Below are positions 31,922 to 33,898 of a stretch of DNA of 33,898 nt, one piece after another. Made by a program: the position numbers and the translations under genes. The notes beneath the pieces were generated by a model. That model searched no databases, was not told where the DNA came from, and saw nothing but the letters and a program-made list of their open reading frames with translations. Source of the DNA: Aquificota bacterium (lineage in GTDB: Bacteria; Aquificota; Aquificia; Aquificales; Aquificaceae); NCBI GenBank assembly GCA_030549905.1, contig JAUQQK010000007.1, forward strand, positions 66,612 through 100,509. The letters are read 5' to 3'. How positions within the stretch are numbered: the stretch's first letter is position 1; every line of letters starts with the position of its first letter.

Positions 31922-32499
31922 AGCTCTGAAAGCTCCACCGCCACGGTCCCCTCTGAAAGCATCTCCTGAAGGGCTCTTTCTGAGTCTCCGGGTTGAACAT
32001 CCACACCCTTTATACCATCAATGAGCAAGAAAGCCTGATAGCCAAGGTTCAAAGCTCCAAGCACCGTATTCTTCACACAGTAGTCAGTTGCCACTCCACC
32101 CACAAAGACCCTTTTTATGCCTCTTTCTTTGAGTAGGCTGTCAAGGGCAGTACCCTGAAAGCCCGAGTAGGCATCAAAGTCTCTGCTAAAGGCTTTGGAA
32201 ATGATAAAGCGGTTGTCAGAAGGAATGTATAAGTCTGGATGGAACATGGCTCCAGGCGTGTTCTGGACGCAGTGAGGAGGCCATATACCCCCTTGCTCTT
32301 TGAAGGATATGTGGTCTGGTGGATGCCAGTCCCTTGTGAAAAACACGGGAAGACCAAGAGAGCTAAAAAGCTTTATGTATTCATTGAGCCTTGGTACTAT
32401 TTTGTCTCCTTCTGGCACGGGCAGAGCTCCGCCGGGCATAAAGTCTAACTGCATATCTACCACAATGAGGGCATCCTTTTTGCTTAGCTTCACCTTCAT
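31906..32499 (-). CDS. pncA: Nicotinamidase
   Basis: 197 residues. Hydrolyses nicotinamide to nicotinate for NAD salvage. The catalytic triad is Asp15 (VVDMQ), Lys102 and Cys141 (GGVATDYCVKNT). The metal ligands are Asp57, His59, His63 (DWHPPDH) and His76 (WPPHC). The ATG overlaps the sfsA stop (ATGA), so the two are cotranscribed. Confidence 0.95.
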   Translation of the reverse strand: MKVKLSKKDALIVVDMQLDFMPGGALPVPEGDKIVPRLNEYIKLFSSLGLPVFFTRDWHPPDHISFKEQGGIWPPHCVQNTPGAMFHPDLYIPSDNRFIISKAFSRDFDAYSGFQGTALDSLLKERGIKRVFVGGVATDYCVKNTVLGALNLGYQAFLLIDGIKGVDVQPGDSERALQEMLSEGTVAVELSELHSTA

Positions 32500-33149
32500 A
32501 GCCTTTCCTCCAAAACAATTGGTATCTCATCTTTTAATTTAATTTCTTCAAGGCTCACCGTGCATCTGTAAGCCCTCACCTCCAGCCCACGGCTCACATA
32601 CCTGACAAGGGCTTCCGAGAAGGCTCTGTCTGTTTTCCAGTTTGGAGAAAAGGCAATTGCATCTTCTCTTTGAACCACAAAGACCACAAGAGGTTTAAAG
32701 CCTCTTTTTGAAAGCTCAATAAGCTTCTCTATATGCTTTCTGCCTCTTTCTGTAGGAGCATCGGGGAAAAGCCCGATGCCATCTTCCACCAGATTTACAG
32801 ACTTTACCTCCACCGGTCTGCCATCAAGAAGGAGGTCAAAGCGACTGCTGTCAAAGCGTGGCTCAAAAGCGATTTCGTGACCATTCAGGTTTTCTGCGAA
32901 AAGTTTTGGTGTGATATGAGAATCAATGCAAACAAGGGTACTGTTTTTCTCAGACAGAATTATCTCATAAGGATGCTTTCCAGAAGACCGCTCACATACA
33001 TATACCTTATTACCACTTAGTAGAAGCTCAGGAAGCCTTCCTGTGTTTCTTATGTAGGCAGTATATTCTTTGCCTCCTATTCTTATCCTGCCTACGAACC
33101 TGTTTAGCCTCTCTAAAAACTCAGCTTCTTTGAGCTTTGGAAACCTCAT
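32496..33149 (-). CDS. sfsA: SfsA family protein
   Basis: 217 residues. Family signatures are NTGRLPELL near the start, EVKSVNL, and FPDAPTERGRKH in the middle. SfsA was named for sugar-fermentation stimulation in E. coli; structures suggest an OB-like nucleic-acid-binding part joined to a PD-(D/E)XK nuclease-like part, with function unsettled. The ATG has no Shine-Dalgarno sequence. It lies 10 bases after a strong hairpin in a leader of about 95 bases. Cotranscribed with pncA. Confidence 0.93.
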   Translation of the reverse strand: MRFPKLKEAEFLERLNRFVGRIRIGGKEYTAYIRNTGRLPELLLSGNKVYVCERSSGKHPYEIILSEKNSTLVCIDSHITPKLFAENLNGHEIAFEPRFDSSRFDLLLDGRPVEVKSVNLVEDGIGLFPDAPTERGRKHIEKLIELSKRGFKPLVVFVVQREDAIAFSPNWKTDRAFSEALVRYVSRGLEVRAYRCTVSLEEIKLKDEIPIVLEERL

Positions 33150-33159
33150 TTTTAGAAAG

Positions 33160-33179
33160 GCCCCACCGGGCGGTGGGGC
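33160..33179 (-). terminator. Strong GC hairpin before sfsA (terminator or attenuator)
   Basis: A perfect 8-bp stem, GCCCCACC/GGTGGGGC, with a GCCC loop on the minus strand, followed by CTTTCT. The U tract is short and broken, so termination would be partial. It lies between the promoter and the sfsA ATG, ending 10 bases before it. Confidence 0.5.
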
Positions 33180-33189
33180 AAAACAATTA

Positions 33190-33207
33190 GGGGAGGGAGG
33201 GGGAGGG
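33190..33207 (+). other. G-quadruplex motif, four G runs with one-base loops
   Basis: GGGG-A-GGG-A-GGGGG-A-GGG on the plus strand: four runs of at least three G with single A loops, the most stable class of predicted quadruplex. It is the template strand for transcription towards sfsA. Confidence 0.7.
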
Positions 33208-33251
33208 AGTTTCTAACTTCCCCTACTTTTTATATCCTAGTCTAAGGGTAT

Positions 33252-33279
33252 ATTATAAACGAATTTCTGAAATTGTCAA
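33252..33279 (-). promoter_or_regulatory. Perfect consensus promoter reading towards sfsA
   Basis: TTGACA (33274-33279), spacer 16, TATAAT (33252-33257), both hexamers exact. Predicted transcription start is near 33245. This is the best -35/-10 pair in the window. Confidence 0.85.
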
Positions 33280-33282
33280 GAG

Positions 33283-33294
33283 TGATTTAAATCA
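33283..33294. promoter_or_regulatory. 12-bp palindrome just upstream of the -35, FNR-like
   Basis: TGATTTAAATCA, perfect palindrome, four bases from the -35. The half sites TGAT-N4-ATCA match the core of FNR-family boxes (TTGAT-N4-ATCAA). The centre is about 43 bases upstream of the predicted start, near the place used by class II activators. Confidence 0.45.
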
Positions 33295-33304
33295 TAAAAT
33301 TAGG

Positions 33305-33433
33305 CTAATAGTTCCTCGGAACTAAAAGAAGCTTTTCAGACAGCACAGGCTCCTTGAGAAGCTCTTTTAGTTTGCTCCTTTTAGTTTTTCCTCTTATCAC
33401 CTTTTTCAGAGTTTCAAAGACCCTCCAGCACAT
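33305..33433 (-). CDS. Possible 42-residue basic protein (weak)
   Basis: A short frame from ATG 33433 to TAG 33305 in the gap after the Rpn-type gene. The product is lysine-rich (VIRGKTKRSKLKELLKEP) and ends LLLVPRNY. There is no Shine-Dalgarno sequence in front. It may be a real small gene, a decayed relict of an Rpn-like gene, or chance. Confidence 0.25.
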   Translation of the reverse strand: MCWRVFETLKKVIRGKTKRSKLKELLKEPVLSEKLLLVPRNY

Positions 33434-33478
33434 ACCCGAGCTTTAATTCTATAAACACCTCTTAACCTCCTGTAAAAG

Positions 33479-33898
33479 TCAGGAAAGCTCAAGCTCAGGA
33501 TAAAAACTTCTTAAAGTCTCAAAAGGCTCTTTGCTGATTATCAATTCCCTTAGAAGCCTTCTGAGCCTATCCCTGTCTGTTTCAGACCTTATGAGCCTTT
33601 CCACCTCTTCTGGAACACTCCCAAACCTTAGCTCAATAACCTCAAGAACCATCTCCTGAGCTTCTATCAAAAGACCTTTTTCCAAGCCTTCCTCATATTT
33701 CCTCTCAGGATAAAGCTTTAACTCCTTAAGCACCTCTTGACCTCCTCTCTCTATTATTTTATGCAGGACACTTTCTTCGTCAATTTTCTTAAAATGGGCT
33801 ATAAACTTTACATAAAGCCAGAAAAAGTAGCCCCTTCTTTCACTTAGCAGTGTGCCAAGGCTTATAAACCTTTCTACCACTTCAAGCAACTCCTCAAG
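33479..33898 (-). CDS. Rpn/PD-(D/E)XK nuclease-family protein, C-terminal part (cut by window edge)
   Basis: The frame is open to the window edge and ends at 33479; about 139 residues are visible. GLEKGLLIEAQEMVLEVIELRFGSVPEEVERLI is reproduced in kind in the C-terminal regions of Rpn-family (recombination-promoting, PD-(D/E)XK transposase-like) and DUF4351 proteins: I see LEKG (about residues 88-91 of the visible part) and RFGSVPEEV. The nuclease domain would lie beyond the edge. Such genes are mobile and often multi-copy. Confidence 0.6.
   Translation of the reverse strand, partial: LEELLEVVERFISLGTLLSERRGYFFWLYVKFIAHFKKIDEESVLHKIIERGGQEVLKELKLYPERKYEEGLEKGLLIEAQEMVLEVIELRFGSVPEEVERLIRSETDRDRLRRLLRELIISKEPFETLRSFYPELELS

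Follow-up and report, generated by a model that had tools for sequence, protein, structure and literature searches.

The C-rich small RNAs (sRNAs) of Firmicutes, IsrR, FsrA and RsaE/RoxS, share an exposed C-rich single strand and a Rho-independent terminator with the RNA reported here, which is encoded in a 33,898-nt stretch of an Aquificota contig (the window, meaning the whole stretch analysed), and in IsrR and FsrA the exposed C-rich regions pair with Shine-Dalgarno regions (PMC9410917). No sequence relation to these sRNAs was found (no Rfam match), and the window RNA differs from them in having one continuous 20-nt tract, not several short C motifs, and in coming from a deep-branching thermophile phylum with Hfq paralogues. 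The alphaproteobacterial ar14/'cuckoo' and CcsR sRNAs presumably resemble it in their C-rich character and anti-Shine-Dalgarno loops, but its tract is a linear strand and theirs are repeated hairpin loops. The Rfam ar14 model gave 15.8 bits on the window RNA against a cut-off of 58.8, and no DUF1127 gene was seen among the annotated neighbours of the RNA copies. The sRNA associated with the gonococcal pilE G-quadruplex likewise has a promoter adjoining a G-quadruplex-capable tract, but its polarity is opposite, as the window RNA is C-rich by promoter and terminator (pilE definition in PMC10094033).

Two transcripts of Aquifex aeolicus are homologous to the window RNA, with the same C tract and the same terminator. 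One is n68, identical with Aae-65 (989704-989840, plus strand, 476/756 reads; read libraries of 33,697 and 25,816 reads), and the other is n75 (1168974-1169071, minus strand), which gave Northern signals on both strands and whose polarity was left open (PMC4227106). Aae-65 had first been described in ref. 85 of Lechner et al. 2014 (PMC4227106). In the main text of that paper n68 and n75 stand as separate candidates, and homologous regions are given for no more than 4/2 and 3/3 species; the main text does not join them as a family, leaves the strand of n75 unassigned, and gives neither structure nor function. Both copies that we located in A. aeolicus VF5 coincide with these published ncRNAs, and n68 also has the same promoter type as the window RNA. 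As a check on the identity of the chromosome, the A. aeolicus tmRNA falls at 1153498-1153844 in our analysis and at 1153499-1153856 in the published Table 3 (PMC4227106).

Promoter, transcript and terminator

The features of the locus are collected in Table 1. The exact TTGACA-16-TATAAT promoter of the preliminary description is borne out as a sigma-70 promoter upstream of the C-rich RNA on the minus strand, with a 12/12 consensus match. A consensus promoter precedes essentially every main copy in relatives, despite diverged surroundings, and is weak only in the n75-type paralogues and in one further genome (G017). These n75-type second paralogues of the Aquifex genus (L033, L042, L136) have a different tract, CCCCTCCCTCCCCCCACCTCCCTCCACC, and the weak promoter TTGCAA, and lie upstream of a phosphoesterase gene. 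The 5' boundary of n68 (989704) is 8 nt after its TATAAT (989691-989696), and applying the same spacing would place the start of the window RNA at about 33244. The start near 33245 looked for earlier thus agrees with the data by homology only, through the mapped 5' end of n68. The palindrome TGATTTAAATCA had also been seen correctly upstream of the promoter. Its spacing, TGAT-N4-ATCA, is FNR/CRP-like, with the centre ~44 bp upstream of the predicted start. Because it is absent upstream of the homologous promoters in relatives, it may contribute species-specific regulation at most.

Table 1. Features of the C-rich RNA locus and its neighbour (window coordinates)
Feature	Position	Strand	Remark
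-35 hexamer TTGACA	33274..33279	minus	equivalent TTGACA upstream of nearly all main copies
-10 hexamer TATAAT, 16-nt spacer from -35	33252..33257	minus	position kept across genera
12-bp palindrome TGATTTAAATCA	33283..33294		upstream of promoter
Predicted small RNA, ~91 nt	33154..33244	minus	start set from the 5' end of A. aeolicus n68
G-rich 5' arm running into the C tract; bulged local hairpin GGGGAAGTTAGAAACTCCC	33205..33223	minus	
C-rich tract CUCCCUCCCCCUCCCUCCCC, 20 nt	33190..33209	minus	near-invariant in alignments of the family; G-quadruplex motif on plus strand
A/U-rich linker UAAUUGUUUU, directly 5' of terminator	33180..33189	minus	candidate Hfq contact
Terminator hairpin GCCCCACC-GCCC-GGTGGGGC	33160..33179	minus	covariation
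Terminator tail CUUUCUAA	33152..33159	minus	UUUUUU-type in Hydrogenothermaceae-like copies
sfsA	32496..33149	minus	Pfam SfsA and SfsA_N; neighbour, outside the RNA family

The transcript would run from a short G-containing leader through CUCCCUCCCCCUCCCUCCCC, the linker and the hairpin to the CUUUCUAA tail, and the covariance-model match in the window spans 33152-33227 (99.0 bits). The C-rich tract and the strong hairpin noted at the outset are both where they had been placed: 10 bases separate the terminator stem from the sfsA ATG (33149), and they contain no Shine-Dalgarno sequence. In the alignments, the linker is U-rich in f1 copies and more A-rich in family f3. The window transcript is without any ATG, and in the alignments of copies the tract accepts indels that disrupt all reading frames; judged from these sequences, the C-rich RNA is therefore noncoding.

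The fold energy of the segment is unremarkable (z = -1.5, with 10/200 shuffles equally good). Folding alone proves little here, and it is the conservation of the 62-nt core that marks the segment as a real feature and not a product of chance. In an alignment of 27 sequences that was not fitted to the structure, the terminator stem is 100% paired, with two-sided changes at 5/8 pairs (36 cells). In a second alignment, which covers 50 distinct sequences from three families and was fitted to the structure, 398/398 cells are paired, two-sided changes are found at 7/8 pairs (115 cells), and shifting the partner by 1-3 columns cuts pairing to 54-69%. The loop and the CUUUCUAA tail are nearly fixed in Aquificaceae, and Hydrogenobaculum-type copies have a different loop. 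Family f3 copies have a classical U run as their tail, and this favours a terminator reading of the hairpin on the minus strand. The hairpin is not a generic terminator, since CCGCCCGG-N6-CTTTCTAA occurs in the A. aeolicus chromosome solely at the two RNA copies.

The stems of the 5' region behave differently from the terminator, which covaries within a conserved core; they are not conserved as such. The two mutually exclusive pairings of the preliminary description can both form in the window, as GGGGAAGTT/AACTCCC (33223-33205, bulged) and as TAGGGGA/TCCCCTA (33225-33219 with 33194-33188), with the same G run entering either the local hairpin or the alternative pairing with 33188-33194. Their reading as a switch is unsupported, as the terminator is the only helix conserved across the family. 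The long-range pairing is kept in the window's genus as UUAGGGGA/UCCCCUAA and is compensated in G029 as UUUGGGGA/UCCCCAAA; other genera have a local hairpin, GGGAGU/AACUCCC, instead, and in most family f3 copies the leader is all but absent. Across the family 69% of the cells of the local hairpin are paired, and its 3' strand is invariant. The C tract is predicted to be largely single-stranded in the genus (mean 0.5-0.7), and less so in some other genera.

Conservation, gene neighbourhood and strand

In 11 other genomes of the same genus, the 62-nt core from tract to terminator tail is 98%-100% identical (mean 99.4%), compared to 64%-70% (mean 65.7%) for the adjacent sfsA DNA, 41%-51% (mean 45.8%) for the DNA upstream of the promoter, and 63% for the 40-nt leader. 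By this measure, the RNA core is far more constrained than its neighbour sfsA. A whole-genome search with the DNA of this element found the C-rich RNA in most genomes of the genus and family, with 80%-90% identity between genera. A covariance model built from 27 sequences (R1) matched 112/136 phylum genomes at E<=0.1; in Aquificaceae nearly every genome matched, at 1e-13 to 1e-24, and in family f3 many did, at 1e-4 to 1e-11. Rebuilding it with matches from this search (R2) gave hits in 128/136 at E<=0.01; most of family f5 was among them (1e-12 to 1e-5), and families f2 and f4 were marginal. Together the models cover nearly all Aquificaceae and Hydrogenothermaceae-like genomes and, less strongly, the other families of the class. 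Two copies scoring above 40 bits are present in several family f3 genomes. When R2 was run on the complete A. aeolicus chromosome, the two copies there scored 75.6 and 66.6 bits, and no other match exceeded 18.2. The tract can persist where all around it changes: the part CCCUCCCCCUCCCUCCCC is identical in G088 (family f3), whose leader and hairpin differ entirely.

A search of 84,980 species genomes for the exact 23-mer AAACTCCCTCCCCCTCCCTCCCC gave 25 contigs, and 24 of the titles name Aquificota-type organisms. The 25th contig, L106 (RFFP01000015.1), is labelled Acidobacteria and probably belongs to a mislabelled genome of the window's genus. The C-rich RNA had no match in viral contigs or plasmids, and no Rfam 15 family came above or near its gathering cut-off. 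A number of assemblies are broken at or beside the element (G015:C17:1, G024:C12:121103, G028:C97:11450, G064:C115:1, G076:C173:1), perhaps due to the G-quadruplex motif or to multiple copies, and absence of the element in such fragmented genomes is not reliable.

With a consensus promoter of its own, a covarying terminator and two A. aeolicus relatives both detected by RNA-seq, the window element is almost certainly an sRNA gene, the first of the options that had been offered for it. On comparative grounds, it is a member of an unnamed sRNA family kept through most of the class. The family is new in the sense of recognition, given that two members were already known as transcripts and the general kind is known.

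The other options, an attenuator or a cis-regulatory RNA for sfsA-pncA, fare poorly. They would have the two 5' pairings switch a terminator that decides sfsA transcription, and the local arrangement does invite this: sfsA follows the terminator immediately in the window's genus, as it does in three further Aquificaceae genus groups (g2, g7, g10), and it lacks both a Shine-Dalgarno sequence and space for another promoter. Elsewhere, however, the RNA sits beside tmk, a DeoR-type HTH gene, purD/gltX, or permease, phosphoesterase, rhomboid or ABC genes; the next gene is convergent in several genera (tmk or the DeoR-type HTH gene), and the same downstream gene on the same strand is not kept in relatives. 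The varying and often convergent neighbours indicate, as far as gene order can, that the C-rich RNA is an independent gene and not an sfsA leader, and they exclude a cis-leader role as the common function. Synteny in other genera likewise rules out a leader or attenuator as the family-wide function. The 5' pairings, as noted, are not conserved, and the arms of the terminator (33160-33179) lie outside both of them, leaving no antiterminator helix evident. We therefore consider a cis-acting leader very unlikely. That the RNA stands directly before sfsA in the window's genus holds, but the link is not general. There sfsA, just past the terminator, would probably be fed by read-through, a side effect of position. 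On the far side of the RNA, the window ends at the contig end inside an ORF without Pfam match (33479-33889), and 33300-33478 resembles a broken coding sequence.

The strand of the RNA also has to be weighed. The published n75 Northern shows signals on both strands (PMC4227106), and the plus strand carries GGGAGTTTCTAACTTCCCC followed by TACTTTTT, a 5' hairpin and T run that could terminate a functional G-rich RNA. But in essentially all copies it is the C-rich strand that carries the conserved promoter, as well as the covarying hairpin with its T-containing tail, and the plus-strand hairpin with its T run is missing in family f3, making a functional RNA from the opposite strand extremely improbable. 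Alternatively, the element might work as DNA, with a plus-strand G-quadruplex or C-strand i-motif that takes part in transcription or recombination, by analogy with gonococcal pilE. The motif GGGGAGGGAGGGGGAGGGAG is the sole four-run G-quadruplex motif in the window, and its four G runs are kept in most copies. In several copies from family f3, though, the G runs number only three, and the promoter, U-rich linker and covarying terminator conserved alongside point to RNA. The pilE RNA, moreover, is proposed to pair with the C-rich strand and would thus be G-rich (PMC10094033), and the window RNA is C-rich. A DNA-level role is accordingly given little credence.

Possible action of the C-rich RNA

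We hold with modest confidence that the window encodes an independent sRNA, probably assisted by Hfq, that acts in trans through its C tract on G-rich ribosome-binding sites. Of the parts of this reading, action in trans by base pairing seems somewhat probable, and action mainly on Shine-Dalgarno regions falls slightly short of an even chance. The RNA would be produced at a high level and bound by Hfq through the U-rich linker and tail; the exposed C tract would pair with G-rich mRNA stretches, e.g., Shine-Dalgarno regions like GGGAGG; and pairing would block ribosome loading or alter mRNA stability. The 5' G-rich arm, where present, may mask one end of the tract. Hfq (PF17209) is encoded in 130/136 genomes, usually as two paralogues, and the window's genome has two. 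Most family f5 genomes have three. The Hfq protein of A. aeolicus has nanomolar affinity for U6 and A18 RNA and does not detectably bind C6 (PMC5379935), so that the C tract would stay free.

Target searches did not confirm this pairing model and identified no target. A. aeolicus ribosome-binding sites are dominated by AGGAGG/GGAGGT, and ~60 genes each have GGGAGG or GGAGGG. At -24 kcal/mol or better, 123 tract-complementary sites were predicted in start regions of A. aeolicus vs 89 mid-gene, a modest excess, and the result was only slightly above that for permuted tracts, with gene starts taken from our own simple ORF caller, a weakness of these tests. Agreement on targets between orthologues of A. 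aeolicus and 800 kb of G013 was no better than for permuted tracts. The best joint candidate, a WrbA/flavodoxin-like gene with a 14-nt complement in G013, was set aside as not conserved in relatives. Across 10 genomes no 13-nt tract complement was conserved in a 5' region, and the pattern GGGGAGGGAGGGG, with one mismatch allowed, returned only the sRNA itself and scattered sites. The U positions in the tract are exactly conserved, stricter than loose Shine-Dalgarno pairing requires, and this too counts against the pairing model.

One tract-matching site, GGGGTGGGAGGGG, recurs in five genomes of the genus; it is located beyond the end of a gene and not within a 5' region. The conserved sequence CCCCTCCCACCCC closely follows the end of a gene and shows no obvious hairpin, at G000:C2:25421 and in four same-genus genomes (L153-L156, L164); it is possibly a Rho-type termination signal, or a 3' site on the other strand that matches the sRNA tract. 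Four type III-B cmr-like genes and one cas3-like gene, within A. aeolicus 248981-262955, rank in the top 45 of the predicted start-region partners of the tract, under names assigned by eye and post hoc.

A different account of the tract is that it serves as a decoy, a C-rich single strand that binds and titrates a protein with a preference for pyrimidines, most obviously Rho, or else one of cold-shock type. Rho entry signals are C-rich, G-poor RNA. The tract is C-rich, G-free and largely unpaired in prediction, it is near-invariant through the class while its surroundings change, and the lack of convincing mRNA targets is what one might expect of a decoy. At ~20 nt, however, it is short next to the 60-90 nt ribosome-free stretches published for Rho loading, a loose YC preference would not need the exact U spacing that is conserved, and we found no precedent. 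On balance, we think titration unlikely.

A further and doubtful extension is that one RNA with an essentially fixed ~20-nt tract serves as a class-wide global regulator in these bacteria, which have two or three Hfq paralogues. It would either buffer Rho or cap many Shine-Dalgarno sequences together, in the latter case as a mobile counterpart of the anti-Shine-Dalgarno of the ribosome. Apart from housekeeping RNAs, few sRNAs are kept across a whole class, and to our knowledge none has been described for this deep-branching hyperthermophilic lineage. The family joins two published but unconnected A. aeolicus transcripts and indicates the likely functional strand of n75, and its covariance model makes the sRNA easy to annotate. 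It also provides a defined and apparently abundant RNA for studying the role of the Hfq paralogues of Aquificota.
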